From Terramyces sp. JEL0728 (lineage: Eukaryota > Chytridiomycota > Chytridiomycetes > Rhizophydiales > Terramycetaceae): a stretch of DNA of 64,000 bases. This document shows positions 1 to 62,352 of the stretch, in pieces. Location of the stretch: contig JADIIU010000059.1 of assembly GCA_027603945.1 (NCBI GenBank), positions 16,903 to 80,902 on the forward strand, in the 5' to 3' direction. How positions within the stretch are numbered: the first letter of the stretch is position 1; the number at the start of each line of letters is the position of its first letter. Made by a program: the position numbers and the translations under genes. The notes beneath the pieces were generated by a model that worked only from the letters and a program-made list of their open reading frames with translations, was not told the origin of the DNA and made no database searches.

Positions 1-1603
1 TCATCTTTGTGCAGCCCTGCATGATAAAACTCTACTTTCAAATGCTTATCTCGCAACTTTTTGGTTAGATTTTCACAATTCTTTTTCGATAAGCAATATA
101 TGATCCCCGAATCGTTTTGATAATTCAAATTAATAAACTCTACAATCGAATCTTCAACATTTTTCCCCTTTGGCCGGATTTCATAAAACAAATTTGGTCG
201 ATTGAAACTTTGTTCGAAACAAACGCAATTTCCCATTTTCAAAACTTGTTGTACATCCACTAGCGTTAAGAAAAAGTACGTTTGACTTTACTATTTGCAG
301 TTGCAGTCAAGGCAATTATAGGAATATTAGGATATAAAGACTTTAGGCAGGCTAAATCCTTGTAGTCTGGCCTAAAGTCGTGTCCCCACTGGCTGACGCA
401 GTGAGCTTCATCAATTACAAACCTTGCCAACATACCTCTGTTATATAGCCCTTTCAGTGCGTCAGAGAACTGCCTGCTTCTCATCATCATTTCAGGGGTA
501 ACATATACTAATTTTACAATAGGATTGTGCCTGTTCAATTCTAAAATTAATCGATATGGACCTGAATAAGCGAATTTCTTTTTTTTGGCATCCAAATCTC
601 CTGATATAGCCAATGCTGGTATTCCCAGCCTCACTAGGCTTTCTACTTGATCCTGGATTAAAGACAACAAAGGAGAAATAACAACACTAACTCCTTTTGT
701 TTTGCCCAAATCTGTTACTGCTGGTAGCTGATAACAAAGTGATTTCCCACCACCGGTTGGCATCAACACAAATACATCATCACCCTGAAGTGCTGCGTTA
801 ATAGCCACTTCTTGATTCACTCTAAAGTCCGTCAACCCAAAGGTATCGCGTAATATTTTATGAATGGCTGCTGTCCATGAATATACTGCTGTATCTTTCT
901 TTCTCGTTGCATTATACGTTTTCAAAGATGGGGAAGCAACTGCCTTCGTTTTTGATACAGGGGCAATTAATTCAATCTCATCATCCTTACGCAGGGGTGA
1001 ACTGGTCAGGTATATCAGTGGTATTTTCTTATCTTTTGAAATCTCCTTTACAGATGATGAATGTTTTGTCGGTTCGCAATCCCCGATGTTGTCAAAATCA
1101 AAATTGGAATAATCCAAATCTTCATCAATATAATCAAATTCATCCCGCTCATACATTCCTTTGTCTGGAAAACTTTGATTTCTATTTTCCTTTTGTTTGT
1201 TTCTGGCAGAATATTGTACATTCGTTGGCTTGGTGTCCAGGTAATCACACATTAGTCTGTCATCTTGGTTTAGACTGTGCGTTGGTTTTATTCCCCGATA
1301 TTCCCTTGCTGACTCTGTTTCCTTTGTATCGGTCACTTCTATATCTTGAAGGTATGAATAATCCAAATCATCGTCAAAGTAATCAAATTCCACATCAGCA
1401 GATCTCTGTTTGTTTCGTTCCTGCTCCAATGGCTTTATGTATCCTACAGTGTTTTTTCCCTTCAACTTGGGAATTGTCTGTTGCACAAATTTGGATGGCT
1501 TTCCTTGGTATGGTTTGAAAGTTGGATTAGTTGGTTTCTTGACGTATGTAAAAGTAGGTATATTGTTTAGTTTTTGAAGATGTTCATTCCAATTTGTTTT
1601 CAT
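1..1603 (-). CDS. RecQ-family DNA helicase (BLM/Sgs1-like), 3' end beyond the window
   Basis: ATP-dependent 3'-5' DNA helicase of the RecQ family, nuclear, acting in recombination repair. Exon 1 is 1603-280 and exon 2 runs from 259 off the left edge; the intron at 260-279 is 20 nt. The disordered N-terminus (about 240 residues) is acidic and carries the motif EFDYxDxDLDYS twice. The helicase core starts near residue 245. Walker A reads MPTGGGKSLCYQLPA with Lys near 287, and the DEAH box (398-401) is followed by the RecQ signature CVSQWGHDFRPDY. After the intron the second RecA-like domain continues with RPNLFYEI and GIIYCLSKKNCE. The RQC and HRDC domains would lie outside the window, so BLM/Sgs1 versus other RecQ subtypes cannot be decided. 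It is divergent from the SAGA gene at 1801. Confidence 0.93.
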
Positions 1604-1800
1604 GGTATTTGTCCGAAGATAATTTGGGAAAAATAATTAACTAAAGTTTCCACTTTTAACGAATCTCAATAATTTCCATTCGGAATCCTTCTACTTGCGT
1701 CGAAGCGCTATGCCAATGTAACGTTTCTTCCAAATTTCTGGAAGCGCAACTTGGATTAAGATAATGCTTGGCCAAGAAGGATCCATCTTTCTTGAATTTA

Positions 1801-2677
1801 ATGGCAACGATCAAAATGTTTCCCTTTAGTTTTACATCTCAAATGACAATTCAAGAGCAGAGAAAAAACACTCTGCAGCTAAAACAAGAACTTGCCGATC
1901 TGCTGGGAGATAGTGGAAAGGAATATTGGCAGCAACTAAGCGACTTTTTAAACAACAAATGTACAAAGCGAGCGCTGTATCAAATTTCTAACTTTAGCGA
2001 TGAAACTGCATTAGCCGTATTTACCACACCACAACAAGCCAAAATCCACAATAAACTAATTTTATGCATTCTATACAATCTCTCTCCCCACTTGCCACCG
2101 CCAGTAGGTGAAGACACTGACTTTGTGATAAAAAATCCAAACAAACGCAAACCGCATGTAATCGTATTTAAAATCAGGATTTACTAGTTGGGAGACATGT
2201 AAAGAAAATGTTCAACACCAAATCTATCCTGGCTCTGAGCCAAGATGAACGGAGCCGGATTTTAAATTTAAAAGCTCAAAAACAAGAATCAGCCCAGCAT
2301 GTATATCCTAAAGGCATTGACGGAATTCCAAAGACCTGTCAGGAAGAAGGAGACATCCCAACGCACGAGGCACTGAGAACGCGAATGAAGTATTGTTTTC
2401 TAATGCAGGTTTATCAGCGCATTTCAAGGATTGGATGGATCGTTTTCGAATGATGCCGTGTTATTGTTGAACCAAGCGCTAGATGTAATATTTGCTAATG
2501 TAGAATTACTTGAAGAATCTACTGAGCAACATGCTTCAAAAAACTCGCCCAATTTTGAACGATTCATTCCAAGACTCTGAAAATAAGAGAAAACTGGATG
2601 TCAATCACCTGAGCTTTTCAATTGAAATGACTCCTCAGAAACTTGATGCAGATCTGGTTGAGGCGATTGTTCCATAA
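1801..2677 (+). CDS. TADA1: TADA1/HFI1-like SAGA coactivator subunit
   Basis: Probable ADA1 subunit of the SAGA histone acetyltransferase coactivator complex (nucleus). Exons 1801-2157, 2178-2389, 2409-2484 and 2504-2677, with introns of 20, 19 and 19 nt; the joined product is 272 residues. The N-terminal block has the family pattern GKEYWQQLSDFLNNK...HNKLILCILYNL. A middle block (LSQDERSRI, GDIPTHEALRTRMK) precedes a histone-fold-like helix, DNYLKNLLSNML, that is only visible after splicing the third intron. The C-terminus (LSFSIEMTPQKL) fits the TADA1/HFI1 tail. The start is uncertain: ATG at 1801, 1816 or 1843. It lies 35 bp before the CZIB gene. The family call rests on motif pattern, so confidence is moderate to good. 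Confidence 0.72.
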
Positions 2678-2712
2678 TAAATTTGGCTTTGTAAATTTTC
2701 ATTTTCTTTTGG

Positions 2713-9411: not shown

Positions 9412-10700
9412 ATGGATCTGAGGAGAAGAATGGTACCTCAAGTGTCATCGCCAGCAAATGAGCTTCTATCAACATTAAAAAGTTATGACGCTTATGCGAA
9501 GCCATTGGAGGATTTTAGAATTAAAACGTTAACAGGCGCATCAGGTAACATATTTTAAACTGCAGTGACTCTCGTATCGACATTTATTATATTCTTTTTG
9601 GTTCTATCTGAATTTGCAGACTGGGTTAATGTGGAAATGGTGCCGTCGTTAACAGTTGATACTTCGAGAATGGACAAGATGCAAATCAACATAGACATGA
9701 CTTTTCCAAAAATCCCATGCTTTTTACTCAGTATTGATGTTATGGATGTTGCTGGTGAGCATCAAAATGGAGCCGACCATTTAATGCACAAATCAAGGTT
9801 GGATCAAAATGGAAAACTGGTTGAAAAGAAAAAAGGAAGTATTGTCGATCTAATGTAGCTCTTGGTGACGCCAACAAGGAAATGAATGATGCCAGAAACA
9901 AAACTTTGACTCCTGGATACTGTGGAAGTTGTTACGGTGCGGTTATGCCAAATAACGGTTGTTGCAATACCTGTGATGATGTAAGATTGGCGTATCAGAA
10001 GTCGGGATGGGGGTTTGAAGACCCAGACAAATATGAACAGTGTGTACACGAAGGATATTCAAAAATGATAAAGGAGCAAGCACACGAAGGTTGTAATCTT
10101 TCGGGCTATGTCCAAGTTAGTAAAGTCCAGGGGAATTTCCATTTTGCCCCAGGTCCTTCTTTTGAAATCCAAGGTATGCATGCACACGATTTGAATGACT
10201 ATCGAAACCACAAGCAGGACTGGGATTTCACCCACACAATTAATCATTTATCCTTTGGGCAGAATGCGGGATTTACAAACCCTTTGAATGAAGTGTCAAA
10301 GAAAGCAACTGGAGGTGAATTTGAATCTAATGACAGCCTATAACACTTTCCAGTATTATGTTAAAGTGGTTTCCACCGAGTTCACATATCGAAACGGCTC
10401 TAAACTACTCACAAATCAGTTTGCGGCAACCGAACATCAAAGAGATGTTACTCCAATGTTTGGAAACATCCCGACAACCATGCCAGGTATTTGACAATAA
10501 CAATAGGTGTGTTTTTTAACTATGACATCTCACCCATGCTCATTCAATACAAGGAATATCGCAAACCATTCACTCATTTTATCACAGACTTATGCGCGAT
10601 AGTTGGCGGTGTTTTCACGGTCGCGGGGATGGTTGATGGGTTGCTGTATACTGCCGAAAAGCGGCTGTTGAATAAAGCTGAATTGGGCAAGCAAGGATAA
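9412..10700 (+). CDS. ERV46: ERV46/ERGIC3 COPII-vesicle cargo receptor
   Basis: ER-Golgi recycling receptor that works with ERV41 in COPII vesicles and retrieval. Exons 9412-9544, 9566-9838, 9859-10314, 10337-10486, 10507-10700; introns 21, 20, 22 and 20 nt; product 401 residues, close to the family norm. The short cytosolic N-terminus (DAYAKPLEDFRIKT) precedes TM1 (VTLVSTFIIFFLVL). The luminal domain has the ERV46-specific cysteine cluster (GYCGSC, GCCNTCDDV) and FQYYVKVVSTEF, in frame only after splicing. TM2 lies in HFITDLCAIVGGVFTVAGM near residue 360. The cysteine cluster distinguishes it from ERV41. Confidence 0.94.
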
Positions 10701-13770: not shown

Positions 13771-14724
13771 TCAAAGGGATCGAAACATGTTGGTGGTAGA
13801 TTCATAAACCAAAAAAGTGATACAAGTACCAGGTAATACCCTTATCATATTTACACCAAGCCCTTTATAAAATCCAAACACTCCTTCATTTCTAGATTAA
13901 TCAAAATTACTTGGATATTGTCACACAAGATTGCCAAACACCAGCATATTCTCGTAGAACATACTTTGATTCAATTTGCATCCTCGCTTTAACCAATTGA
14001 TATGGATATGTGCAAAGAGTTGCAAATAATTTTGAGGCACTAGCTACACCGATTGTCCCAACAGGATTCTAACAGTTAACTATTTTGTACTGAATCTAGA
14101 GGATAAGATTTTTTCAGTTCCTCGTATGTCATGAATTGAATGGCTCCATGCGATACTCCAAACAAAGCTGGAACTATCTATATTAACCATAAATACCCCA
14201 CGATAAAGACCGCGAATTCCTTCATTCCGGTAAAGTTTCCAGAGTCCATCTTGGGTTAGATAGTATATACCTAAAACACCTTTGTAGGCAGTGGCATCGG
14301 AGGGTGACTGAGTAAATATTCTTGTTTTGACAACCCAGATCGGGTTTGTAGCCAAAGAAGTGAGAGCGCCTGGTGTTACTTACGTGCTACCTGCTCCGGC
14401 GGATGCTGTCAGATGTTCAAAAGGCGAAAGCTTTGTTCTTTCAGTGGTTCTATAAAAGTCTTTCAAGTGAGAGTACCAAAAAAAGTACAATCCCCAGGAC
14501 ACAGTTGACCCAACAAAATTGGGGGACAGTCCTCTATAGAAGCCCCTAATTCCTTCTTTTTTTTTAATATCAGAAAATATTTTCAACAAACCGAAATTTG
14601 AATTTTCTTTTACTTGCATTTTTGTTTTTAAGATGTCGAATGGATGCATGAGCAAGGTAGAGGAAGCGCCTGCAAGAAATCCGGATAATGCTTGGTCAGT
14701 CGATTGGCTTCCTGTGAGCCCCAT
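13771..14724 (-). CDS. Mitochondrial carrier, FAD/folate (FLX1-like) type
   Basis: Mitochondrial inner-membrane solute carrier (SLC25), 290 residues with the standard three repeats. Exons from the start: 14724-14391, 14369-14197, 14177-14091, 14068-13911, 13891-13771; introns 21, 19, 22 and 19 nt. Repeat 1 has LLMHPFDILKTKMQV, repeat 2 ATNPIWVVKTRIFTQ and repeat 3 TYPYQLVKARMQ. The IWVVKTR and YPYQLVKARMQ signatures and SHGAIQFMTYEELK are typical of the FLX1/SLC25A32 group that moves FAD or folate; substrate assignment is inference. Two of its exons lie in sequence with no long ORF and appear only after removing the tiny introns. The ATG at 14724 is 25 bp from the divergent DUF2470 gene. Confidence 0.88.
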
Positions 14725-20904: not shown

Positions 20905-23478
20905 ATGTTTTCGTCACCAAACAATAAACCAATTATCATTATACCAGAAACGCCGATCGTAGAAACCAAAAAGATCGCAAAGCCTAATAGAGTCCCTCTA
21001 TTTGCAGAATATGAGCAATCGCTAATTTCCGCTTCGAAATTATTTGAGGATGTGTATGGAGATTCAGACGTGCCCAAAAGAGATGCTGATATCCTCAATA
21101 CCTCATCCAAAAAAAATACAACAGTGCACGATGGAGAAGACGAAAACATATTTTTGTTAACAGATTACAACTTCAAGTGCAAGGACACGCAGCAAGGAAG
21201 CTCTTCAGATGTGATCTTTGTCGACGACCAAATCGCCCAGATTGATTCAGACAAAGAGGTCCCAAAGAAACGGAGGAAGCTTGTCCGCAAAGATCAATTG
21301 AAATCTCAAGAAAGCCAAGGAATTTCCAGCAGTGTAAAATCAACACCTGAAGAGAAAGACGATATTGAAATTATTGAAGAGATATCAAAAGTCAGTGTTG
21401 TTCAAGACAGCGATGAAGACCAAATCAATGAGCATATTGGAAGTATAATCACCAAGCTGCTAAATACAGAAAGTTTGGCAAATATCCAGGAGTCATTACT
21501 ATGCAGTGAATCGCAGGCACAGTATATCATCAATCATAGACCTCAAAATAGTTATCTGGATTGGCTGGAAGTAACGGATAAAGGGGTGAAAAAGCTAATT
21601 ACTAAACATTATACCAAGCTGATTGAGTTTCAGAGTGTTGAAGATATCTTTATTCACTGTGACGATGTCAGTCAAGAGATCAGTGGGATTTTGGAGTCTT
21701 GGAATGCAAAGACCTCTGCTTCCAAGTACCCTTGCTTGCAGGCACAACCTGATTTTGTCACAAAAGAGTTTAGTTTATTTTCCTATCAATTAATAGGAGT
21801 TAGTTGGTTGTACTTGCTTTATACGAAAGGTTTAGGTGGTATCCTCGCTGGTAATCAATTGCTAATCCAGGTTGATTCGTTTTAATTTAGATGAAATGGG
21901 ACTAGGAAAAAGTTGTCAAATCGTTACATTTCTAGGGCTACTTAAATCCAAAGGCGAAGGTGGTTTGAATTTAATTATTGTCCCTGCAACTGTTTTGGGT
22001 ATGTGTCGGCTAATTAAGATAACTGGGTTAGAGAGCTCAATATGTGGGTTCCTACGTTAAATGTGATCGCTTATACCGGAGACCAGAACGAGCGGAGAGA
22101 CTGGCAATTGTATATTATGGAAAATCAGGATCTTGATGTAATAGTAACGACTTACAATCAAGCGTCGGGAACTATGGATAGAAGATTTTTGCGGTCTCTC
22201 AAATGTAAAACTTTAATCTTGGATGAAGGACGTAACTTTTGCTAATATAGATATGATCAAGAATTCGTCATCTCAGAGGGCAGTCCATTTAAAAAATTTG
22301 AATATTCCATTCAGATTGCTATTAACTGGCACTCCACTTCAAAACAACCTGAAAGAATTACTTGCGCTCCTTACTTTTATCATGCCAGAATTGTTTGGAC
22401 CATGTTTTGATCAGTTGTCGATAATATTTGATGACCAAAAGAGTAAATCGTACAGGGACGTGATTTCCAAGCTCCAAATTGAAAGGGCAAAGAAAATGAT
22501 GTCGCCATTTATACTTCAGAGACTTAAACAAGATGTACAGAGCAGCTTACCCCCCAAAATCCATAAAACAGAGTATTGTATACGTAATTCTGTTCAAACT
22601 GAAATGTATGAGGTAAATTTCTTGTTGACGATAGAGAGTATTGCGATCTTCCAAGGATTCCTGTCAGAAATTGTCAAACGTGCTGATGGAATTGCGCAAG
22701 TTATCAAACCATCAGCTGCTGCTTAGGCATCATTATCAAGACAATACACTGAAGGCTATAGCGAAAACTCTCATGTCTGTAATTATTTATAACGATAGGA
22801 AATTGATTTCTTTGATAGTAACGAAGTTTATATCTTTGAAGATCTGCAAGTGATGAATGATTTTGAAATACACAAGCTATGTCGCAAATATTTGAAAACC
22901 AAAAAGTACCAACTCGACGAAAACCACTGGATGGATTCTGGCAAGATTTCCTGCTTGTCAGAACTGTTGAAAACTTTGAAAAGACAAGGGGATAGGGTTT
23001 TATTATTCAGCCAGTTTGTAATTATGTTGGATATCTTGGAACTGGTTCTGGATACTCTTGGGATCAAATTCCTTCGGCTAGATGGATCGACCCCGAGTGG
23101 AGACCGCATACAGCTAATTGACAGTTACAACAAGACTCCAGAAATCACTGTGTTTTTACTGTCTACAAAGGCGTGTGGTCTCGGAATCAATCTGACTTCG
23201 GCCAATGTTGTCATTCTTTATGATATGGATTTCAACCCACATAACGATATACAAGTAAGTCTTTTTAATCCCAGGCCGAAGATCGAGCACACAGACTTGG
23301 ACAGACTAGACCCGTCACCATTTACAGATTGATTTTGAAAGATACAGTTGAAGAGCATATTTTGAACCTAGTAAATTCCAAGCTGTTGCTGAACGGGAAA
23401 CTTAAAGAAAAGGATTCGTCAAAGCTGATTGAGTCTGGGCTGATGGATATTATCCAACATGATATTGAAAATATATAA
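20905..23478 (+). CDS. FUN30: SNF2-family chromatin remodeller, Fun30/SMARCAD1-like
   Basis: Nuclear ATP-dependent nucleosome remodeller, 810 residues. Exons 20905-21850, 21891-21998, 22019-22231, 22251-22612, 22635-22778, 22799-23254, 23275-23478; introns 40, 20, 19, 22, 20 and 20 nt. The N-terminus (1-290) is acidic and disordered with SUMO-interaction-like runs ([17 protein letters not shown]). The ATPase has [24 protein letters not shown] (Lys near 322), the DEGH box (420-423) and [11 protein letters not shown]. The helicase C lobe has [31 protein letters not shown], and [15 protein letters not shown] (743-757), completed across the last junction. DEGH and overall order favour Fun30/SMARCAD1; CUE domains are not evident. 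Confidence 0.93.
21851..21890 (+). other. 40-nt intron made of two perfect 20-nt intron units in tandem
   Basis: The intron that joins the first and second exons of the SNF2 gene reads as GTAATC...CTAATCCAG (21851-21870) followed at once by GTTGATT...TTTAATTTAG (21871-21890). Each half has the length, GT start, branch-like TAAT and AG end of the ordinary introns in this window. The junction AG|GT could act as a recursive splice site with a zero-length exon. Removing all 40 nt restores the Walker A segment ADEMGLGKS. Confidence 0.75.
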
Positions 23479-38500: not shown

Positions 38501-41500
38501 AATCTATTCAAGATGCCCTCCGAGCGAAAAAGAAGAGATTTATCTTCCAAGGAGAGGAAATTGGTATAGTCCGTACTGTGGGTGAATGGATTACCATGAA
38601 TCCAGGTAAAATGTGATTAAAAACTAGGTTATGCCGGCAGAACAGAATTGCCAGAAAACATCAAGGCACTATTCAGACCATGTTCCATGTGTGTGCCCAA
38701 CTTGGAGTTAATCTGCGAAATTATGTTGATGGCCGAAGGATTCATAGAAGCAAGCTCCCTTGCAAGGAAATTCAACACCTTGTACAAACTAAATAGAGAA
38801 TTGTTGTCCAAGCAAGATCATTATGACTGGGGTCTAAGGGCCATCAAATCTGTACTAGTCGTCGCAGGCAGTTTGAAACGCCAAGATCCAAACGTGCCAG
38901 AAGAACATGTCCTCATGAGAGCGCTTCGTGATTTCAACTTGCCAAAAATCGTTACGGACGACTTGCAAGTTTTCCACGGTCTAATTGGTGATCTGTTCCC
39001 AAAATGCGAAGTTGCAAGAAAAAGGGACGAAAAACTTGAAACAGAAATCAAAAAGGCTACAGTTGAAAGTGGACTTCAGGCTGAAGAAATATTTGTGCTA
39101 AAAGTTGTGCAGCTAGAGGAACTGCTTGCTGTCAGACATTGTGTATTCATTATTGGCAACAGCGGCACCGGCAAATCGCAAATTTGGAAGATCTTGTGCA
39201 AAACATATCAAAATATGGGCAGAAAATGTACTGCTTGGGATCTAAATCCAAAGGCAGTCAGCACTGATGACCTTTATGGCTGTATCAACCCGGCTACCAG
39301 AGAATGGAAGGACGGGCTTTTCTCCTCCATCTTAAGAGAAATGGCTAGCGCACAAGGCACAGACCCCAAGTGGATGATCCTTGACGGTGATATTGATCCA
39401 AACTGGATTGAAAGTTTGAACACGGTCATGGATGACAACAAGATGTTGACGCTTGCTTCTAACGAACGTATTCCAGTCAAACCGCACATGCGTTTGATTT
39501 TCGAAATTGCAAACTTAAAATACGCTACACCAGCTACAGTTTCTAGAGCTGGTATACTATATTTAAATACCACCGATCTAGGATGGAACCCATACGTTCA
39601 ATCTTGGCTAGAAAAGCGTGAAGATGCTGCTGAAAAGACCAATTTATCTGTTCTGTTTGACAGATATGTGAACCCATGCCTGGATGTTCTAAGATCTGGA
39701 AAGTTTAAAATGGCGTTTGTTGAAGAATTTTCAATGGTTATGGCGCTTTGTAATATCCTTGAAGGTTTGTTGACACCTCAAAATACTCCAAAAGGATGCG
39801 AAAAAGAGTGGTTTGAAATCTATTTTGTGTTCTCAGCTGTATGGGCATTTGGCGGATGCATCTACCAAGACCAGCTTGTCGATCACAGAAATGAATTCAG
39901 CAAATGGTGGAACAATGAATTTAAAGTAGTAAAATTCCCACCAAGCGGAACAATCTTTGACTACTATATCGAACAAGAAACCAAAAGATTTGTTCCTTGG
40001 ACAGACAGAGTACCAGTTTTTGAATTTGACTCGGAGGTTCCACTTCAAGCAGTGCTAGTCCACACTCCTGAAACCACAAGATTAAGATACTTTATCGATT
40101 TGCTTGCTGATAATGGAAAGCCTGTGTTGCTTATTGGTAGCGCAGGTGGTGGGAAAACCGTGTTAATGCAAGACAAGCTGAATTCATATGGTGACGACAA
40201 GCTATGCATCAATGTTCCATTCAACTTCTATACAACTTCGACTTCGTTACAGCTTGTTCTTGAAAAACCACTTGAAAAGAAGGCCGGTAAGAACTATGGG
40301 CCGCCTGGCAATAGAAAAATTATTTACTTCTTGGATGATCTTAATATGCCCGAAGTCGACAAGTACGGTACTGCAAGTCCCCATACCCTTTTGAGACAGC
40401 ATCTGGATTATCGCCATTGGTACGACAGACAAAAACTGACTCTCAAAGAAATCCACAACTGCCAATACGTCGCGTGTATGAATCCAACTGCTGGTTCCTT
40501 TGTAATAGATACAAGATTACAAAGACACTTTGCCTCATTCGTAGTCAATTTCCCAGGCGTTGACTCTTTGCAAAGCATTTACCTGCAAATATTGAACGGG
40601 CACTTGCGCTCCTTTACCCCTTCAGTCCAAAAGATAAGCGAACGAGTTGTTGCAGCAGCTCTTTCTTTGCACAAAAAAGTGACATCTACCTTCCTACCAA
40701 CTGCAATCAAGTTCCATTATGTATTTAACTTGCGTGACCTCAGTAACATCTTCCAAGGAATCCTATTTTCATCCAAAGAAAAAATCAAGGACAATATCGA
40801 GTTTGTCCGATTATTACTTCACGAAAGTACGAGAACTTATGGGGACAAGTTGGTGGATGAAAGCGACCGTGTGATGTTGCTGAAAGTCCAAGAGGAAATT
40901 ATCAAGAAAAGCTTTGATGACATGGACCAGACAGCAATTAAACAAGAGCCAATTCTTTTCACCCACTTTTGCAACGGTATGGGCGAGCCAAAGTACGGTG
41001 CGGTGAAAGACTGGGTAGTTCTGAAAAAGCTTCTGGACGAAGCTCAAACGCAGTATGAAGAATCCAACGCTGCAATGGGACTGGTTCTATTCGAAGATGC
41101 CATGAGCCACATTTGCAGAATCAACAGGATCTTAGAATCTCCAAGAGGAAATGCGCTACTAGTTGGGGTTGGTGGTAGCGGTAAACAATCACTTTCGAGA
41201 ATGGCGGCCTTTATTTCGGGGATGGAGGTCTTCCAAATCACTTTAAAGAAAGGATATTCTGTTGCAGATTTGAAAGTAGATTTGGCAGCTCTATATGTAA
41301 AAACTGGCCAAAAAAAGCAGTCAATCATGTTCTTGTTGACCGACTCGCAGATTGCAGACGAGAAGTTCCTAGTTCTTATAAATGATTTGCTGGCGTCTGG
41401 CAACATCCCAGGTCTCTTCCCAGATGAAGATGTGGATAACATTATTTCATCAATGCGCGGGGAGGCAAAAACATTAGGTCTACAAGATACCCGAGAAATA

Positions 41501-44500
41501 TGTTGGGATATTTTCATTAGATTTGTCAGAAAGAACCTCAAAGTAGTATTGTGCTTTTCTCCTGTCGGAAATGCTCTGAGATCCCGATGCAGAAAGTTCC
41601 CAGCAATTGTCAATTGCACAATCATTGATTGGTTCCAAGAATGGCCCGAAGAAGCGCTGACTTCTGTTGCAAATCGATTTATAGCACCATTTGAACTAGT
41701 ACCAGACAAGCTGAAGGTTCCAGTTACCAAGTTTATGTCTTTTGCGCATATTGGGGTAAATACAGTGTCCAAAAAGTACTTGGCAAATGAAAAACGGTAC
41801 AACTACACAACTCCAAAGTCATTCCTAGCGCTGATTTCAATCTATCAAGACATGCTCGAAAAGAAGGCTCTCGAGCTGACAAAGAGTATGGACCGTTTAG
41901 AAAACGGTTTGACCAAATTGCAGGCTACAGCAGGACAAGTAGATGACCTGAAGGCAAAGTTGGCAACTCAAGAAGTAGAATTGAAAGCAAAGAACGAAGA
42001 AGCCAATCTGTTGATTGAAAGAGTCGCGGTTGATACTGAAAGGGTCAACAAAGAGAAGGCGATTGCAGCAGGTGAAGAAATCAAAGTTGATTTGGTGACC
42101 AAAGAAGTCGGAGAGAAACGTGCGTCTTGTGAAAAAGATTTGGCAGCTGCTGAACCTGCGTTGGCAGCCGCAGCGGCAGCGTTGAATACCCTCAACAAAG
42201 CCAACTTGACAGAATTAAAATCTTTTGGTTCCCCTTCAGATGAAGTCAAGAATGTCACAGCAGCTGTTATGGTTTTGCTCAGCCCTGCCGGTAAAATAGC
42301 AAAGGACAGAAGTTGGAAAGCGTCCAAGAATATGATGGCAAAAGTAGATTCTTTCTTGGATCAGCTGATCAACTTTGACAAAGAAAATATTGACGCATCC
42401 AACTTGGAAGCAATCAAGCCATATTTAGCTGACCCTAACTTTAACGAAAACTTTATTAGGAGCAAATCTTCTGCTGCTGCGTCACTTTGTGCTTGGGTGG
42501 TCAACATTGTTATGTTCTATCACGTTTTCTGTGATGTAGAGCCAAAGAGAAAGTCTCTTGAAGCTGCAAACGCTGAATTAGCCTCCTCACAAGCGAGACT
42601 TAAGGAAATTCAAGGCAAGATCACTGATTTAGACAACAATCTTGCAGATCTCAAGGCCAAGTTCGAGAAGGCTACGGCAGATAAGCTGCGTTGTGAAGAA
42701 GAAGCCCAAAGCACCCAAGTTACAATTGAATTGGCCAACAGACTAGTCAACGGATTGGCATCTGAAAAGGTTCGTTGGAGTGAAGCAGTAGCCAAATTCA
42801 AAGAACAAGAAAAAACGCTTGCTGGTGATGTTTTGCTATCGGCCGCATTCGTTTCGTATGTTGGCGGTTTCACCAAAAGATATAGAGAAGAAATGATTGA
42901 AAACTGGTTCAAGTATTTGAAAGATGAAAACAATCCATTTAAAATACCACTATCAGATAACCTGGACCCGCTTAATATTATGACAAATGCCGCGGAAATT
43001 GCCAGATGGAATAATGAAGGTCTGCCTACAGACAGAGTATCCTTGGAAAATGCAACTATGGTAACCAGCTGTAAGCGATGGCCATTAATTATTGATCCTC
43101 AGCTACAAGGTGTTACCTGGATTAAAAATCGGGAAGGCAGCAAACTAAAGACTGTGAGACTTGGAGCAAAAGGATACTTGGATGCCATAGAAAAAGCAGT
43201 GTCGTCCGGCGATGTAGTTTTGATTGAAGATATCGCTGAATCGATCGATGCTGTGCTAAATCCTTTACTTGGCCGTGAAACTATCAAAAAGGGAAGATAT
43301 ATCAAAATGGGGGATAAGGAAGTAGAATATGATCCATCTTTCAGATTAATCTTGCAGACAAGATTGGCAAACCCCCACTATCCACCAGAAATTCAAGCAC
43401 AAACAACGCTGATCAATTTCACTGTGACATTGCTCGGTTTGGAGGATCAACTGCTTGCCGACGTTGTGAACATTGAAAGACCTGATTTGGAGAAAACCAA
43501 GGCTGAATTGACAAAGCAACAAAATGAATTCAAAATTAGATTACTGGAACTAGAAGATGCCTTGCTCTCTAGACTCTCTGCAGCCGAAGGAAATTTCCTT
43601 GGCGACACTGCCTTGGTTGAAAACTTGGAAATTACTAAAGTCACCGCAATTGATATTGAACAGAAAGTGGAAGAGGCAAAGAAAACTGAAAAGAAAATCA
43701 ACGAAACTAGAGAACTGTACCGACCTGTAGCTGCTAGATCTTCTCTTTTGTACTTTTTACTCAATGACTTGTGGCAGATCCACCCAATGTATCAATACTC
43801 ACTTAATGCATTCAAAGTAGTGTTTAAAAATGCAATCAACAGGGCAGAATCGTCTGAAGAATTGAAGGAAAGAGTGCGCAACCTAATCGACTCTATTACC
43901 TACATGGTATTTGTATATACCACAAGAGGGCTGTTTGAAAGGGACAAGCTCATTTTCACTGCGCAGATGACCTTCCAAATCCTGCTTGCTGCGCAGGACA
44001 TTGACTTTGTTGAACTTGATTTCTTGCTGAGAGGTCCGCGTATGATTGGCGTGGTCAGCACATTGGATTGGCTATCTCAGGTTTCTTGGGGTATGATCAA
44101 ATCGCTCTCAAATCTTGAAGTGTTTAGAACACTGGCATCCGACATTGAAGGCTCTTCGAAACAATGGAAAAAGTACTGTGAAAATGAGATTCCAGAAAAC
44201 GAAAAATTACCACAGGTATCTAAAAACTCACAATAGGAATGGAAAAACAAGAACCCTCTTCAAAAGATGTGTATTCTAAGATGTCTAAGACCCGACAGAA
44301 TGACCTACGCAGTAAAGAACTTTATCGGACTAAAAATGGGAGACAGATACATTATGTCTGCTCGGGTGCCAATTGCGCAAAGTTTCTTGGAATCTGGCCC
44401 AGCTACGCCAATCTTCTTTATTTTGTCTCCTGGTGTAGACCCAGTCAAAGAAGTGGAACTGCTAGGTAAATCGCATGGTGTATCGGAAGACTTGGGCAAT

Positions 44501-46174
44501 TTCCACAACGTATCTCTTGGACAAGGACAGGAAGTTATTGCAGAACAAAAGCTAGAGATTGCATACAAGAATGGCGGATGGGTGATGCTGGAAAATATCC
44601 ACTTGGTTGCAAAATGGCTGCCAATTTTGGAAAAGAAATTGGAAGCTTTATCTGTTGGGGCAAACCCTTCCTTCAGAGTTTTCCTTTCAGCCGAGCCTGC
44701 AGGCGATCCTGCGTACCATATTATTCCAATCTCCATTCTTCAAGCTTCTATTAAGATAACCAACGAGCCTCCAACGGGAATGCAGGCAAATATCCACAGA
44801 GCTCTGGATAACTTTACTCAAGAGAGCATAGAAAGATGCTCAAAGGATGCTGAATTTAGAACCATCCTGTTTGCTTTATGCTATTTCCATGCTGTAGTGC
44901 TTGAAAGACGAAAGTTTGGCACTCAGGGTTGGAACAAAGGTTATCCATTTAGCACTGGCGATTTGATGATTTCAACAGATGTGCTCTACAACTACCTGGA
45001 AACCTTCTCTAAAGTGCCCTGGACCGATTTGCGATATATGTTTGGAGAAATTATGTATGGAGGCCATATCTCTGATGACTGGGATAGAATTTTATGTTCG
45101 AGTTACCTGGATGTGTATATTAGAGAGGAGATGCTTGAAGGAGGTTTCGAATTAGCTCCTGGGTTTGCCGCCCCTCCAACGTCAGACTACAAAGACTACC
45201 ATAGGTACATTGACGAAAATCTGCCACCAGAATCTCCAAACTTGTACGGCTTGCATCCAAATGCAGAAATCGGCGTCCTTTCCAAGATGGCAGATAAAAT
45301 GTTCAAAACAATTTTGGAAATGCAGCCTGGTGACACGTCTGGTGGTGGAGGTGCATCAAAGGAAGAAAAAGTGAAGGCATTCCTGGACGAAATCATGGAA
45401 AAATTGCCAGACAGCTTTAATGTGCAAGAATTAATGGCAAGAGTCGAAGAAAGAACTCCGTATATATCTGTTGCCCTGCAAGAATGTGATAGAATGAGCA
45501 TGCTGACATCGGAAATTAGAAGGTCTTTGAAGGAACTAGAGTTGGGATTGAAAGGTGATTTGACAATCTCTGAAAATATGGAAATGCTGATGAACTCGCT
45601 ATTCATGAATGAAATCCCAGCAAGATGGGACAAACTGGCGTATCCATCCATGCAACCACTCGGTGCTTGGTACGGAGATTTGCTCCAGAGAATTAGAGAG
45701 CTAGAACAATGGGTTGCAGAGTTTGCCCTTCCTTCCGTGGTATGGATGCCTGGTTTATTCAATCCCCAATCCTTCTTGACTGCTATTATGCAGACCACTG
45801 CTCGTAAGAACGAATGGCCGTTGGATCGAATGGTTCTCACTGTCGATGTAATGAAGAAAGCCAAAGACGAATTTTCTGGGGCTCCAAGAGAAGGTGCATA
45901 CATCCATGGTCTATTTATGGAAGGAGCAAGGTGGGATACCGGTACTGGAATGATCCAAGAATCTCTATTGAAGGAATTAACCCCTTCGATGCCAGTCATA
46001 TATATTAAAGCGATCCCAGTGGACAAACGCGATATGAAAGGAGTGTATGAGTGCCCAGTATATAGAACTAGACAAAGAGGTCCAACGTTTGTATGGACGT
46101 TTAACTTGAAAACAAAAGAACGGCCACAGAAATGGACATTGGCTGGTGTATGTCTGCTATGTTCTGCAGAGTAA
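32599..46174 (+). CDS. Axonemal outer-arm dynein heavy chain, beta (DNAH9/11/17) type
   Basis: Flagellar motor, 4482 residues, the expected full length. Exons 32599-33129, 33151-33478, 33500-33993, 34015-34473, 34495-38605, 38628-44215, 44237-46174; introns 21, 21, 21, 21, 22 and 21 nt, clustered at the 5' end. P-loops: AAA1 GPAGTGKT (1870-1877), AAA2 GNSGTGKS (2151-2158), AAA3 GSAGGGKT (2478-2485), AAA4 GVGGSGKQ (2821-2828). AAA1 continues [20 protein letters not shown] and CFDEFNRI, the axonemal rather than cytoplasmic pattern. The stalk coiled coils flank the microtubule-binding domain (around 41860-42750). All key motifs are intact. It shows the organism builds a motile flagellum with outer arms. 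Confidence 0.97.
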
Positions 46175-49037: not shown

Positions 49038-51747
49038 TTAAATCCAAGCTTCTCTGATCACCTTTCTTTCAGAGTAGTGGCGAGCTGCAATAATACCTCC
49101 AACGAGCGCAACAATGCTAAGAACGAGTTGAGCATAGGAAAAGTCATCCTTGAGTCTATCAAACATCTTGCTTGGCATTCTTTTAGTTAAAAATAAGTCT
49201 GTTCCGTAGGACAATACCAAACTAGTACTTTCGAGCAGTGTCTCCTTGGAAATAATTGTATTTGGATTGATAATCTGCAGGTCATAGGATAAAGTGTCTT
49301 TAGGGTTAGTGGCTATGACTGGGTGATACGGATAGAGCTGTTCTTCTTTGTCGTAGGAGGTAGGTGTATGCTTTGGTCGTCTTGGGTCAAGAACTCTTCT
49401 GCTTGCACCAAGTAAAGATCCTTGTTCCAATCCAAATATTACTTCTCTAGAAGTAATACCAGCCAAAGTGCGTGTAACTCCTAATGAGGAGATAGAGTGA
49501 GGAGAAATAAAGGTTTGCGAGATATAGGAAAAGCTAGTGTTGTGGAATGAGGAAAACGTAGGACTATAGTTAAAGGTACTTACCTAGTAGCACGAACATT
49601 GGGTTTTGCACTCTCATACAATTCTAGTACAGCAACCTCATAGTGCTTGGAGTTAATGCCCAGAGTCCCGTTCTTTGCTTTTGCTGGGCCATGATTCCAA
49701 TAAGTGTAAACGATAAAGTTTTCGCAAAACAACAGATGCATATCATTTTGCAAATCCCCTGCGCCAAATGTAGTGATTTTATGATGCAGTACTCCCGAAA
49801 CAGTATCTAGCAAATAAAGAAAAGTGGTTAAAGTGCTTTTGGTTTCGGCATAAGACAAAATAGCAACGAGATTTGGATTGAGGTATTTGTACAAGACGGA
49901 TCTATCTCCAAGAACTCGTCCTAAAGAGGCTACAGCGTTAAAATCTGCCTTTGCAACAGACACGATTTTTTCGTTTGATGGTAAAGAGAATGACCAGGTT
50001 CTAATAGTTGAAAAAGCGGTATCCAATTTGCCATTGCCAACAAAGCCCTCAAGAGTGTTGCCTTCTTGGTGGAAAAAGTACAACGAAGAAGCAGATTTGG
50101 CAAATTCCTCACGAGTAGCTTTTGTATCTGGGGTAATCAAAAGCTACATTAACTTTGCGAGTACCTGATTGTTTTCCAATAAAAATGCAAACACTGCAAC
50201 ATTAGTGTCCTTTTCAACTATATTTGTGCGAATTGTCTTTTTCACTTTATCTTTGATTTTGAAGCTTGCCGTTTGCAAGTTACCAAATAATCTTCCGGTT
50301 AGGGCATCGATTTGGATATAAATTGTTTCCTTTTCCTTTTTCCCGATAATGCTGACAACTGGAGGAGTGTCAACTCTGTAGTCTCTGCTCAAGAACACCT
50401 GGCTAGGGGTAAAGTCAAGATATTCTTGCCATGCAATTTCACCATTTGTAGTATCAATGCCGTAAGCTTTGTTTTTCTTTGTAATGAACACGGCAATTTT
50501 TTGAAAGCCGTTCAGATCACCAATAGTTTCAATAGACTTGGTCGTAAGATGTCTCTTGATGCGTGCAAAGTAGTTTTCAAGGATGGAGTTGGCTCCTGGT
50601 AATTCAATTTCCTTTGCGTGGTCGTCAACCGGCAAATCCACCATGATTGCGCCTGCAGGATAAGCTAAACTTTCTTCTAGCGTCCATTTCAGGTTTTTTT
50701 CAAAGTAATGCAACGACCCGTCATTGGTAGTAACAAACAATTTTGGAGAGTGCCCTTCTCGAGTGTGTTTGTATTCGAGCCATACCTAAATAAGTAACTT
50801 TATACCTTGTCGATATTTCCATACTTGCTTGAATCAATTTCAAACTTGTGCTCCTGATCGCTTTCAACAACGACTTGGTTACCTTGTTGATAGACGGCCG
50901 AAATGATTTCTTGGCTGCCATATTTGCTGTAGGCGTATTTCTTTATATTTTTAGAGTGCTTTTGAATAACCTGCGCTTTAAAATCATCATTGATAGTAAC
51001 AATAACGCTCTTGGTTCCTTGTTCCAATGCAAATCTGCTTCCGCCTTTAATTTGAACTGGTTTATATTGCTCATAACCAGGTATTAATTTTGACAATTCA
51101 ACCACTGCGCCAGCTCCCAATTTCACCACCTTGAGTTCATTTTCTTTCCATACTAAATAATCAGACTCTTTGTTTTGGATATAAACCAAATCTTGAACAC
51201 GAGTACCATGGAAATCAGTTTTTTGTATTTTGCCTTGGATTACAACTAAATTACCGTTGACGACCTTTCCAACTACTAATTCAGTATTAGTTCCATAAAC
51301 AAACAACCCATCTCTGAAAGCAATCCCCAAACAAGTAAAGTCCAAAGGAATAGCGTACTGAATGGCACCTTCCTTGAGTTTGTAAACTGTGTTTGGATTG
51401 TACAAATACACGGTGTCGCCTTCAACAATAAAATCCTTTGCTGCAACAGGAATTTCATTAATCAAAAACAAATCCTGATCGTGTATATAAAAATTTGAAT
51501 CCGTGAGTGTGTAAATGAGGACGTTAGTAATTGTCTTTACGACATTACTTGTTAATTCGATGCGCTGCAGAATTTCGTTTTGGTTCAAGGCGGCAATGAT
51601 GTTCTTGTCTGTAGATACTATAGTCGATTGGTGTAAACGATTGATTGAAACAGGAGTACCAATGTGTTTCTGGTGCCAATCCAGCACGCCAGCATCCTTT
51701 TCATATAAACCAAAAATGCCCACGATTAACAGGAACAATTTCACCAT
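49038..51747 (-). CDS. EMC1: EMC1, ER membrane protein complex subunit 1
   Basis: Luminal scaffold of the ER membrane insertase EMC, 882 residues. Exons from the start: 51747-50806, 50785-50165, 50143-49584, 49563-49038; introns 20, 21 and 20 nt. A signal peptide (MVKLFLLIVGIFGLYEKDAG) leads to DWHQKHIG, as expected. Beta-propeller-like PQQ strands fill the first half. The conserved C-terminal DUF1620 region is recognisable: SLGVTRTLAGITSREV, GASRRVLDPRRP, EEQLYPYHPVI. It is followed by a single membrane helix (LVLSIVALVGGIIAA). The segment between 49500 and 49563 is coding only after splicing. All parts fit EMC1. Confidence 0.94.
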
Positions 51748-53410: not shown

Positions 53411-55356
53411 ATGGACAGCTATGAAAAAGCAATAGATTCCTGGAAAACAGTAAATTTGACAGACCTGCAAAAACAATTGGATGTTCAATCCCTAGCTGTA
53501 TTCCAAACTCAATCTTCCTCTCTTGAATCAAGAAAAAAACTAGCTGACCAAACCAGAGGTGCATTTTACTAATACAGAATTCAAGAAAATACCTAGCCCT
53601 GACCAAGTCCAAATTAAATCGCTTTTAAAAGAATACCAAAATGAAATCGACAGCATCAACAAGCGATCAAAGAATGCTGAATCGGCTTTTCTAAACTTGT
53701 ACAAAGTAAATATTGTTTATACAGGTGTTTGCTGAAGTTGCCGATCCATATCCGATCTTACTGGAATTGAAAAACAACTCTGAACAGAAAAATCAGCTGG
53801 AAGAATTAAAGAATGAAAATCGAAAGTTGTACAAGCAGATGGATGATTTGAATGACAAATTAGCAAATGATAAAAAGAATGAATCGCAAATTACAGAGTT
53901 GAAGCAACAAGTGAATCAATACGAGCTACTAGTAAATTTAGCTAATGTAGTTGGAAGCCAGAGTAAACGAAAAAGTAGCGGAATTGACAATGGAGCTGAA
54001 GGGTGAATTTGACGAGAGAATTAAAATTTACAAGGAAAGGTATTCACTATTGACATAGCGAACACTCATTGAATAGACAGCTCAGTCATTTAAAGGATCA
54101 AATGACTTCGCTAAAGTCAAACCAGGAATTGAATTCCACCATGAATGCAGACCATTACAATGAAGATTTGGCATTAAAACTAGCAGATATGGATATTTTA
54201 CAACTTGATTTGGAAAAAGCAAACGCAAAGAACGGCACTCTGCAAAAACAAATTGTAAATAGCTGTAATATTAGATTGTACTCAAGAATGAAATTCAAAA
54301 ACTGTCAAATCAATCTGTTCTCAAAGAGACTGAGAAGGATGTGGACAATTACAAGAACCAAATTCAAGAATTGGAATCACAGATCCACTCTATTGAAAAG
54401 ACCAACAAGCACGACCAGGAAGTTTATAAAGTCAAGGTTGTTGAGTTGGAGAGACAAGTTGCAACAAAACAGGTTGAAATCAAGCAAAAAGAGACTTTGT
54501 TGGAAGAGTATTCTGACTATGAGGAAATCAAGCGGGAATTGGAAATTATGAAAGGTTTGTACAATTAATTCAGGTGTCGAGATTGAACAAACCGATGATA
54601 ATTTACCGCTAGAAAGAATGTTGCTGGATAAAAACAAGAAGCTAGAAAATGAAAATATATCTCTAAAGAATGAATTATCCAATGTCAACGATTCATTAGA
54701 GAAAACCAAAGATCTGCATTCTAAATTACAATTTGAAACAAAGCAAAAATCAAGTCTGATTGCAAAGTTGGAATCCGATATCCATAGATTGAACGAACGC
54801 ACACCGCATTCGCCAAACGAACATCTGGAGCAACTAATGTCTGATTTCAATCCAACCAAACCCAAAAATGACAGCTCAATAATTCCAATCCTTACTTCTC
54901 AAAGGGACCGATACAGACAGCGCTACGAAGAGTCGCAGTTGGAAACCAGGTCACTAAATCAAAAGATTTCAACGCTATCTGACCAGATCAATTCTTTAAA
55001 ACAAGATAATATTTCGCTGTACGAAAAGTTAAAGTATCAAGAATCGTATGTCATTGACGTTGATGTCAACAAGTACAAGAACATGTACGAAGAGCGTATA
55101 GATCCTTTCCAGCAATTCAAGCAGAAAGAAACAAAGAGAGCCAGCAACCTCAACACTCTGGAACAAATTGCGCTGGAATTCACTAAACTATTGGTTGGAA
55201 ACAAGTATAGCAGAGTCATATTTGTAGTTTATGCCGCTATGCTGCATTTGCTTGTTTTTGTTTCTCTTTGGGAACTGATGGCGATCGAAAGCTGTAAAGG
55301 TATTCGCTATTAACCTAGTTTACGCATTAAAAGGTCCAAATCGCCCTGATACATAA
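53411..55356 (+). CDS. COY1: CASP/COY1 Golgi coiled-coil protein
   Basis: Golgi-membrane golgin related to the CUX1 splice product CASP, 603 residues. Eight exons: 53411-53558, 53578-53705, 53725-53931, 53951-54039, 54059-54254, 54275-54554, 54574-55299, 55319-55356; introns 19, 19, 19, 19, 20, 19 and 19 nt. The N-terminal hallmark WKTVNLTDLQKQLDVQ and LLKEYQNEIDSINKRSKNAE are present. Long coiled coils follow (residues 100-450), then the CASP-C segment (ILTSQRDRYRQRYEE, YVIDVDVNKYKNMYEE) and a C-terminal tail-anchor helix (IFVVYAAMLHLLVFVSLWELM). The last exon is short (KVYALKGPNRPDT); without the last intron the protein would end five residues after the helix. Confidence 0.94.
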
Positions 55357-55598: not shown

Positions 55599-56780
55599 AT
55601 GTCATCCACAGCTAAAGTACCGGCTGTAACAGAATCACTATCGAAACTTAATGTGGATCCAAAAACCTCACCAGTCGCCGCCCCAAACCCTGCAGCAAAT
55701 GTAGCTAAACCCGCTACACAAGCAGCACCACAATCCACACCAGCAGCTCAATTACCACCTCCAAAAGGAGTGAAAGAAAAAATAAAAAAGCTCAAAATAG
55801 AAGATTTAGAAATTAGAAACACCCTGGGAACTGGTTCGTTTGGTCGCGTACATTTAGTAAAGTACAAACCAACCGGAAAGCATTATGCTATGAAAGTATT
55901 GAAAAAAGCGGAAATCATAAAGTTACGCCAAGTAGAACACACGATGAATGAAAAAAACATATTAGAACAATTGGATTTTCCATTCTTGGTGAAAATTCTA
56001 GGAACCTTTCAGGATTCAAACAACTTGTATTTGGTCCTAGAGTATGTCCAGGGTGGTGAATTATTCACGTATCTGAGAAAAAGTGGGGTAAGAGTTTGTT
56101 AATTTAGCGATTCCCAAACCACGTCGCTAGATTCTATGCAGCAGAAGTTGTGATGGCATTTGAATATTTGCATGGAAAAGATATCATTTATCGTGATTTA
56201 AAGCCTGAAAACTTGCTGATTGACCATCTCGGACACATCAAAATAACAGATTTTGGGTTTGCCAAATTTGTCCCAGATGTAACATGGACTCTGTGTGGAA
56301 CTCCAGATTACTTGGCACCAGAGATTATTCAATCAAAAGGTTACGGCAGAGCCGTTGATTGGTGGGCACTTGGCATCCTTATTTATGAAGTAGCCAATAT
56401 TTAAACGCTAGATGATTGCTGGACACCCACCATTCTATGACGAGGATCATTTTAAATTATATGAAAAAATTCTAGGCTGTAAATTAAGATTTCCCTCGCA
56501 CTTTGATCCACTAGCTAAAGATTTGGTCAAAAGACTGCTATCTCCGGACCTTTCAAAGCGCTTTGGCAACTTGAAAGATGGCGTACAAGATATTAAGCAT
56601 CACAAGTGGTTTGCAGGCGTCGATTGGGATAAATTAAAGAATTTGGAAATTCCATCGCCATACGTTCCAAAACTGAGCCATGAAGGAGATACAAGTAACT
56701 TTGATGTATATCCCGAAGATCACGAACCTTACGGAGCTACTGGACCTGATCCTCATCGTGAGCGTTTCAAAGACTTCTAA
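55599..56780 (+). CDS. cAMP-dependent protein kinase catalytic subunit
   Basis: AGC-family Ser/Thr kinase, 379 residues. Exons 55599-56087, 56108-56389, 56412-56780; introns 20 and 22 nt. An Ala/Pro-rich N-terminal extension (1-60) precedes the kinase core: [13 protein letters not shown] (Lys99), [16 protein letters not shown], the activation loop [15 protein letters not shown] with the phosphorylatable Thr, and [19 protein letters not shown] completed across the second intron. The C-tail ends FKDF, the hydrophobic motif typical of PKA. It is regulated by cAMP through regulatory subunits not in this window. Stop 58 bp from the convergent SEC1 stop. Confidence 0.95.
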
Positions 56781-59035: not shown

Positions 59036-59159
59036 GACTTCTACATTTTAACCGTGAGATACTTTTCCTGAGTAAATCTTTGAGCGATATGACTGTCATG
59101 GTGAAATGTAAAATACGAAAATACTCGCGCGTTTTCAACTTGGAAGAATAACATTGTCT

Positions 59160-61109: not shown

Positions 61110-61126
61110 GAAAAATTCAAATAGAT

Positions 61127-62352
61127 TTATTGCTTTAATAGACCTTCCACATGAAGGAAAGTGGATCTAAAATCGGCTTGCAGGTCTTCAAAATCTTCCA
61201 GTCCGATGCTGACTCTGCACAGTGTTGGGCTAATTTTTGGGTCTTGAAGCGTTCTCCATTCAATGAGGGATTCCACACCTCCTAATGAAGTGGCATTAGC
61301 AACCAATCGGAGGTTGCTGCAAATAAGACGGGCATGGTGTAGAGTTTTAAACTATGTCAGGATAAGCTACCTCAACAGACAAAACGCAAGCCCATCCTTT
61401 GCCTTGTCTTTTGGCGGCTTCATGTCCAGGATGAGCTGGGAGGGACGCATGCCATACTTTGCCAACCACATCCAAACACGGTTCGCTCTTAGAAGACAAC
61501 CATTGTGCTAATCTGGCAGCAGTTTCAGATTGCTGCATTACACGCACTTTAAGAGTTCTATTGTTATGCGGCATTCACCTCAGACTTCTTAGCAACAGCC
61601 AAGCTTCCATATTTCCCATTACAGAGCCCAAGAAGTGTCTTTGAACAATCAACTCATCTCTAACTTTCGGATCTTTGGTAATCAACACACCACCCAACAA
61701 ATCAGAGTGTCCACCAAGCGATTTTGTACTGCTGTGCATTACAATATCGGCTCCGTGCTCCAGTGTATACTGAATTGGCGGAGGTGCAAAGGTTGCATCC
61801 ACAGCAAGGATTACACCTTCTGGTTTCTTGGAGGAAAAGTAGCTCAAATCAGACACTTCACCTCTAGGATTTTGTGGCTAGATTAATGATATTTACAGAA
61901 TCAAAGTAAATCATATCCCCTTTTGATAATTTCCCCAGAAAATCACCGCCTTCAAGATATAAGATCTGCACATCTCTATTCTGGGTGTACAGCTTGATTG
62001 AATTATGAGATCCGTGATAGCCTTCCTTGTTCATCAGAATGCGTTTAGGCTGGAAATATTGAAACAATGCAAAGATTGACGCAAGGCCGGATGAATAGGT
62101 GACTGCATAGCCCTTTTCCAATGCCCCTAATACCGACTCGACTCTATCCCTAGTGTCAGTAGACATTCTCGAATACACATGGTGTTCTGTGGGTTGAAAA
62201 TCAGTATCCATCCATCCTCTTTTTTGGGCCGCGATTTCATTTGTTCCTTCCGGATATTTATACGTGGTAGAAACATGTAACGGGGCCGAGATATCCGCAG
62301 CAGATGATTTGTCTGCATGAATCGCAAGGGTAGAGAAATTAAAATCGTTCAT
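61127..62352 (-). CDS. Cys/Met-metabolism PLP-dependent enzyme (cystathionine gamma-synthase/lyase family)
   Basis: PLP-dependent trans-sulfuration-type enzyme, 388 residues, normal length. Exons from the start: 62352-61897, 61877-61579, 61557-61371, 61351-61127; introns 19, 21 and 19 nt. Motifs include HVYSRMSTDTRDRVE, VTYSSGLASIFALFQ, YFDSPQNPRGEV (completed after the first intron), AVDATFAPPP, and HSSTKSLGGHSDLLGG with the Schiff-base Lys. The C-terminus has SLGGVESLIEW. Which reaction (gamma-lyase, beta-lyase, gamma-synthase) cannot be set from sequence alone. It ends 17 bp before the HEH gene start. Confidence 0.92.

Follow-up and report, generated by a model that had tools for sequence, protein, structure and literature searches.

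Recognisable introns in the window analysed here, a stretch of 64,000 nucleotides from Terramyces sp. JEL0728, and in 20 further stretches of 10 kb from elsewhere in the same assembly, are nearly all 19–22 nt long, which is near the shortest length known. These segments very probably are true spliceosomal introns of the U2 type that have kept little more than their functional parts, as judged from a length peak confined to GT..AG segments, from a branch motif close to the 3′ end and from the proteins of related fungi. A first, sequence-only reading of the window had proposed spliceosomal introns of 19–22 nt in a fungus. The host is indeed fungal (Chytridiomycota, Rhizophydiales), the segments behave as such introns with respect to length peak, control runs and branch motif, and the length distribution, for which a genome-wide comparison had been proposed, extends to the 20 other stretches.

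Length distribution of the introns

Intron length was assessed with a Viterbi gene finder, the codon usage of which was trained on ten long open reading frames of the window. In the flat-length pass introns of 10–200 nt were allowed at equal cost and GT..AG was the sole splice rule; control runs used the identical gene finder with other dinucleotide pairs, ten in the window and four in a set of 264 kb made up of the window and the 20 further stretches. Detection by the gene finder is biased against introns with a length divisible by three. In the window 29 of 52 introns were 19–22 nt long, none 14–18 nt and four 23–30 nt, while the ten other pairs gave 1–4 segments of 19–22 nt among 38–52 called; among the eleven pairs the peak is confined to GT..AG. 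Over 264 kb the same pass placed 111 of 221 introns at 19–22 nt (24, 54, 21, and 12 introns at 19, 20, 21, and 22 nt, respectively), as against 6–11 among 171–184 segments for the four control pairs. Outside the peak there were six introns of 14–16 nt, none of 17 or 18 nt, eight of 23–26 nt (two of 23 nt and one of 24 nt among them), 27 of 27–60 nt and 65 above 60 nt. By subtraction, off-peak calls number 110 for GT..AG and 165–177 for the control pairs, and as the former are fewer than the latter they look like background. Free of any length prior, the introns thus fall nearly all within a few nucleotides of one another in the range of about 15–25 nt that marks ultra-short introns (111 of 221 calls, the remainder below the control background). 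When the splice model was learned from the data and length was left flat up to 400 nt, 225 of 326 introns in the 264 kb were of 19–22 nt. Plain GTA..YAG spacings of 19, 20, 21, and 22 nt occurred 64, 59, 65, and 49 times, compared with 29, 31, 32, and 29 in Markov shuffles, i.e., an excess of about 2-fold, and of up to about 1.6-fold at other spacings.

It is most improbable that the segments are an artefact of gene modelling, i.e., chance GT..AG gaps that keep reading frames open. The control pairs also yield segments of this length (1–4 in the window, 6–11 in the 264 kb), for which reason roughly 5–10% of the calls may be spurious, but the excess over controls is about tenfold and refutes the artefact for the bulk of the introns; in addition, the branch motif described below played no part in calling, and a close relative aligns gap-free.

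For the final gene models the splice model was learned from the data, GC donors were allowed and introns were held to at most 30 nt, which makes these models a reconstruction and not a test of length. They place 88 introns in 26 of the 31 gene models of the window, 84 of them of 19–22 nt (21, 33, 18, and 12 at 19, 20, 21, and 22 nt, plus four of 23–25 nt), and 288 introns in the other 200 kb, 264 of them of 19–22 nt, or 348 of 376 overall. The intron density of these models is about 2.35 per gene model and 1.8 per kb of coding sequence. The sequence-only reading had counted 91 introns in 27 genes (20, 31, 21, and 13 at the four lengths, four of 23–25 nt and one each of 34 and 40 nt). The shape of this distribution is retained at slightly altered counts and its limits, 260–61896, coincide with the first and last modelled introns (260–279 and 61878–61896); no 34-nt intron was found, and the 40-nt intron is dealt with below.

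Splice signals and internal spacing

Of the 111 introns called without a splice-site model, 88% have A at position +3, 53% have A at +4 and 57% have T at +6. When the terminal three bases are set aside, the A of the last T[A/G]A lies 5 or 6 nt from the intron end in 89 of these introns, compared with about 12 when interiors are shuffled. In the final set the branch A is found 5–6 nt from the end in 266 of 348 introns of 19–22 nt, as against 94 of 752 GTA..YAG decoys of equal length, and 295 of the 348 have it at position 14–16; these figures are partly circular because the model contains the motif; the figure of 89 of 111 is free of this circularity. For most introns both internal spacings are bounded on each side and length varies by 1–2 nt in each. 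The anatomy is that of a GTA(A) start, a T[A/G]A branch motif in most introns, a (T/C)AG end and a few nucleotides of filler; a polypyrimidine tract would not fit downstream of the branch site.

The U2 type is indicated by GT-AG or GC-AG ends and by a motif upstream of the AG (89 of 111) that matches the branch-recognition sequence GUAGUA of U2 small nuclear RNA (snRNA). Degenerate splice sites and the lack of a branch signature, reported as a correlate of ultra-short introns, are not what is seen here; instead there is an anchored T[A/G]A motif. U12-type introns start with ATATCCTT or GTATCCTT and carry the branch sequence TCCTTAAC. The present introns, with the consensus GTAA(T)(T) and (C/T)TAA(C/T), are not of this type as a class, individual U12 introns not having been searched for.

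Conservation across the splice junctions

The junctions of three gene models of the window were compared with 12 homologues (of 241 proteins), gaps being sought within six residues of each junction:

20905..23478, plus strand: SMARCAD1/Fun30 helicase gene, 7 introns (20, 20, 20, 19, 22, 20, 20 nt); Boothiomyces P0013 is 75% identical over 100%
30720..32413, minus strand: gene for the poly(A) ribonuclease PARN, 5 introns (20, 20, 19, 22, 20 nt); identified from PDB 3d45 and Boothiomyces P0002
56839..59035, minus strand: Sec1/Munc18 gene, 9 introns (20, 21, 22, 19, 20, 21, 20, 21, 20 nt); compared with Boothiomyces P0133

In Boothiomyces macroporosus 20 of the 21 junctions are free of gaps, with 7–13 of the 13 surrounding residues identical, and over all relatives 78 of 88 junction-by-relative comparisons show no gap. 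The statement of the sequence-only reading that a conserved motif is restored at every junction is borne out to this extent, the comparison covering 21 junctions in three genes. All seven SMARCAD1/Fun30 junctions are gap-free against P0013, and the Sec1 model has 670 amino acids, exactly as P0133, to which it is 92% identical with nine of nine junctions gap-free. The lone exception in B. macroporosus (P0002) carries an insert of seven residues, GKYRFTV, precisely where Terramyces has a phase-1 intron, and the SMARCAD1 protein of Boothiomyces sp. JEL0866 (P0014) has seven residues, GKRNLIR, at a Terramyces intron site. From their protein letters both inserts are readable as 21-nt GT..AG introns retained in the deposited Boothiomyces annotation.

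Some of the tiny introns are already present in the deposited Terramyces annotation, and the PARN model is 98% identical to the deposited protein HDV01_006157. However, fusion, truncation or a missing exon affects all three of the deposited proteins compared: P0001 is fused to a downstream homeobox gene, P0015 diverges from our model at the fifth SMARCAD1 intron, and P0134 is without its start and one exon. Standard annotation thus fails on such genes, and the gene content of Terramyces and related genomes may therefore be misjudged. The deposited introns of P0001 and P0134 are longer than ours at some sites, as would be expected if the short segments were pieces of longer introns with their true borders elsewhere. 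This is hardly likely, since the longer introns remove 9 and 39 residues that are retained in the Boothiomyces proteins of the alignment, whereas the short introns give Sec1 precisely the length that it has in Boothiomyces.

Splicing machinery

The sequence-only reading had suggested that the U2 snRNP, SF1 and U2AF genes be inspected for losses, and the genome shows no loss of U2 snRNA, SF1 or U2AF65. U2 snRNA is found with 140 bits and an intact GUAGUA. For SF1 the SF1-HH domain scores above its cut-off in two exons, and the model, which is incomplete, contains a 19-nt intron. The large subunit of U2AF (U2AF65) is found with an E-value of 3.5e-74 and 251.7 bits, below the whole-protein cut-off of 310.3, in a gene that is split by introns (20, 20, 19, and 19 nt in a model with an open frame). 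The genes of Isy1 and Cwc25 are also present. The N-terminus of Cwc25 starts MGGGDLNLKKSW, has tryptophan at positions 12, 24, and 71 and looks ordinary. Cwc25 models on two stretches (L045 and L046, on contigs C30 and C33) give identical proteins with the same 20-nt intron and represent either uncollapsed haplotypes or a duplication of the region. At its start the Isy1 gene (L042 1495–2061, minus strand) seems to need three tiny introns with exons of 1 and 3 nt between them, a tentative structure; a single 65-nt intron was rejected as it meets a stop codon. The usual N-terminal motif of Isy1 is not seen in this model.

Removal of the segments without a spliceosome, either by an endonuclease-ligase route or by translational bypass, is very hard to credit. 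No support was found for it in the sequences studied here, and the GT/GC..AG ends, the branch motif at a fixed distance and a U2 snRNA with the matching recognition sequence all speak against it.

Points against, longer calls and abutting introns

Several observations weigh against the conclusion that these are genuine U2-type introns with little else than their working parts. First, every splice is a prediction from DNA and protein sequence. Second, the TRA motif is absent from 25 of the 348 final introns of 19–22 nt and placed other than 5–6 nt from the end in 57 more. Third, there are gaps at one Boothiomyces junction and in nine of the other 67 comparisons, and identity around the junctions is as low as 1 of 13 residues in distant relatives. 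Fourth, no U1 and no credible U6 snRNA was found in the 15.0 Mb assembly with Rfam models and U6 core patterns, for which an assembly gap, a split U6 gene or divergence are possible reasons. Matches to U6 on two stretches (L029 and L030) were rejected, as they are part of a protein-coding gene, the tiny intron of which they overlap. Fifth, when introns of up to 400 nt are allowed the log-likelihood over the 264 kb is 9189, compared with 8822 for a short maximum, and 76 introns of more than 60 nt are placed.

The comparison of the two maxima was prompted by the observation that raising the gene-start penalty alone gives long ‘introns’ between genes. Genes number 124 with the 400-nt maximum and 166 with the short one, a difference to be expected when long introns join adjacent genes. 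Eight window introns were called at more than 24 nt, and every one of them has a short reading when introns are held to at most 30 nt; for three of the eight (40, 99, and 158 nt) this short reading is backed by relatives. The 158-nt gap in the Sec1 gene resolves into a 20-nt intron, an exon and a 21-nt intron, and the hidden exon of 39 residues is present in Boothiomyces. The 40-nt and 99-nt gaps of SMARCAD1 align gap-free once read as short introns. Read with introns of 19, 20, 20 (GC-AG), and 19 nt in its second half, the MT-A70 methyltransferase gene (see below) covers 169 of the 172 Pfam domain positions. Rare longer introns may exist, the calls resolved singly being those of the window.

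The 40-nt intron of the sequence-only reading consists of two introns that abut:

21851..21870, plus strand: first tandem intron, 20 nt, SMARCAD1/Fun30 gene (flat-length pass)
21871..21890, plus strand: second tandem intron, 20 nt, same gene, with a zero-length exon between the two (AG|GT)

Removal of both creates the helicase motif LADEMGLGK, and 13 of 13 residues around the junction match in Boothiomyces. A second abutting pair (20 and 19 nt, 39 nt together) is found on another stretch (L012), and in the flat-length pass over 264 kb zero-length exons make up 2 of 226 internal exons. The arrangement of the two pairs suggests that they may be removed stepwise, as in recursive splicing.

Proposed mechanism

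On the reading that we prefer, that of U2-type introns stripped almost to their functional parts, the 5′ end GTAAYT would be read by U1 and then by U6, the branch motif by SF1 and an ordinary U2 snRNA, and the first AG downstream of the branch would be used. The lower bound of length would be steric, with about 13 nt from the 5′ splice site to the branch A and about 4 nt from there to the end. The sharp upper bound would result from deletion pressure that drives introns to this floor, and a spliceosome tuned to a fixed spacing perhaps helps to set it. As U2 snRNA, SF1 and U2AF65 are kept, Terramyces offers a route to asking how 5′ splice and branch sites some 13 nt apart are read.

In a variant of this reading the spliceosome itself is the ruler; it would accept a branch A only about 13–15 nt away from the 5′ splice site, longer introns would not be removable, and the narrow size range would stem from an altered machinery instead of deletion pressure. 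This is a serious possibility, albeit not one that we would back. It is consistent with the sharp upper edge (12 introns at 22 nt, 2 at 23 nt and 1 at 24 nt among the 221 calls made without a splice-site model), with the finding that extra sequence can take the form of two complete abutting introns (20 + 20 nt in the window, 20 + 19 nt on L012), with the unusual look of the Isy1 start, if its model is right, and with the statement that nucleomorph introns of more than 20 nt splice worse (PMC5014332). On the other hand SF1, U2AF65, Isy1, Cwc25 and U2 snRNA are present and the start of Cwc25 is ordinary, the same edge could arise from deletion pressure alone, and genuine longer introns may exist outside the window.

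It is tempting to go further and propose that in Terramyces, and at least in Boothiomyces, an intron-dense genome (about 20,000 introns by extrapolation) has independently shrunk its introns to a near-minimal size without giving up SF1, U2AF65 or its strong, anchored branch site, against the reported rule of branch-signal loss, with both spacings fixed, the spliceosome serving as ruler and abutting introns removed successively by recursive splicing over a zero-length exon. We hold the chances of this proposal as a whole to be evenly balanced.

Gene models of the window

A Pfam family was matched by all ten of the spliced window proteins submitted. Besides the genes listed above, the final models include the following features:

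260..61896: span of the modelled introns, both ends set by the introns 260–279 and 61878–61896
260..279, minus strand: first intron, 20 nt, in a DEAD-helicase gene (DEAD domain match), presumably of RecQ type
9412..10700, plus strand: ERGIC/COPII vesicle protein gene, 4 introns (21, 20, 22, 20 nt); spliced protein matches PF07970 (8.8e-84) and PF13850 (1.2e-30)
13771..14724, minus strand: mitochondrial carrier gene, 4 introns (21, 19, 22, 19 nt); PF00153 in three stretches (1e-68)
24596..25891, plus strand: MT-A70 methyltransferase gene, 6 introns, which we take to be METTL14-like; PF05063 (3.9e-18), profile positions 1–169 of 172
25625..25644, plus strand: GC-AG intron of 20 nt in the MT-A70 gene, with the branch motif TTAAT
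25900..27745, minus strand: gene assumed to be NDC80-like, 4 introns (19, 19, 20, 21 nt)
32599..46174, plus strand: dynein heavy chain gene, 6 introns (21, 21, 21, 21, 22, 21 nt); Pfam dynein domains on three exons
49038..51747, minus strand: EMC1 gene, 3 introns (20, 21, 20 nt); Pfam EMC1_C (2.4e-64)
53411..55356, plus strand: gene for a CASP/CUX1 golgin, 7 introns (19 nt in six, 20 nt in one); Pfam CASP_C (4.2e-42, computed on a preliminary model that contained a 32-nt intron and stopped just short of the C-terminus)
55599..56780, plus strand: protein kinase gene, presumably PKA-like, 2 introns (20, 22 nt); Pfam Pkinase (1.2e-73)
61127..62352, minus strand: Cys/Met metabolism PLP enzyme gene, 3 introns (19, 21, 19 nt); PF01053 at 8–379 of 388 amino acids (1.6e-74)
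61878..61896, minus strand: last intron, 19 nt

In the protein kinase gene, removal of the 22-nt intron at 56390–56411 joins LLIYE to MIAGHPPF. Two Nab2-type CCCH zinc finger genes stand in tandem at 7383–8378 and 8413–9360, and the modelled intron 8352–8370, which has no branch motif, probably fuses these neighbours. Two similar choline kinase-like genes also adjoin (16748–17877 and 18243–19418; Pfam was run on the second only). ARAGORN in its bacterial setting found no tRNA genes in the 264 kb (the window and L009–L028).

Comparison with known tiny introns

Terramyces is a cultured fungus. Tiny introns are already known from nucleomorphs, heterotrich ciliates and mikrocytids; what appears to be new is the fungal host, the intron-dense genome and the anchored branch site, and with Terramyces a fungus joins the few lineages with near-minimal introns. 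The sequence-only reading knew of no fungal genome described in this way, and in agreement with this no report of such introns in fungi was recognised by title or start of abstract among the matches listed from the open-licence literature, a search outside of which most subscription papers lie. In Cryptococcus neoformans introns average 56 nt, and those below 40 nt are there a small and poorly spliced group, in contrast to Terramyces.

The nucleomorph introns of the chlorarachniophyte Bigelowiella natans are, as in Terramyces, numerous and of a narrow size range, 18–21 nt (PMC10245619). A nucleomorph is however the relict nucleus of an endosymbiont, its 5′ sites are largely GT(A) and no branch signature is reported (PMC2483917), whereas the branch motif of Terramyces is clear. 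The heterotrich Stentor coeruleus shares a single narrow size class and a fixed position of the branch A, but its introns are of 15–16 nt with the branch A at 10–11 and no strong consensus, compared with 14–16 and a consensus in Terramyces, and its Cwc25 plug and Isy1 N-terminus are said to have diverged (PMC9505925), while Cwc25 of Terramyces keeps Trp 12, 24, and 71. The mikrocytid Mikrocytos mackini likewise has introns of very uniform length and conserved sequence; it differs in being an obligate parasite with 224 introns of 16–17 nt and a reduced spliceosome in which 17–19 proteins were identified (PMC10245619). Paramecium and Nyctotherus also have only ultra-short introns (PMC5014332), although of about 25 nt and, for Paramecium, with no branch-point signature reported (PMC2483917).

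Yarrowia, Giardia and Trichomonas share the short, fixed distance from branch point to AG and the lack of a 3′ polypyrimidine tract, but these are treated as intron-poor (PMC2483917), whereas Terramyces has about 2.35 introns per gene model. According to this 2008 survey, lineages with short introns, among them Paramecium, B. natans and dicyemids, lack a branch signature and have weak 5′ sites, while intron-poor lineages have strong signals (PMC2483917). Terramyces contradicts the reported association between tiny introns and loss of the branch signal, as it is intron-dense, has tiny introns and keeps an anchored branch site, a combination that falls outside the scheme of the survey.

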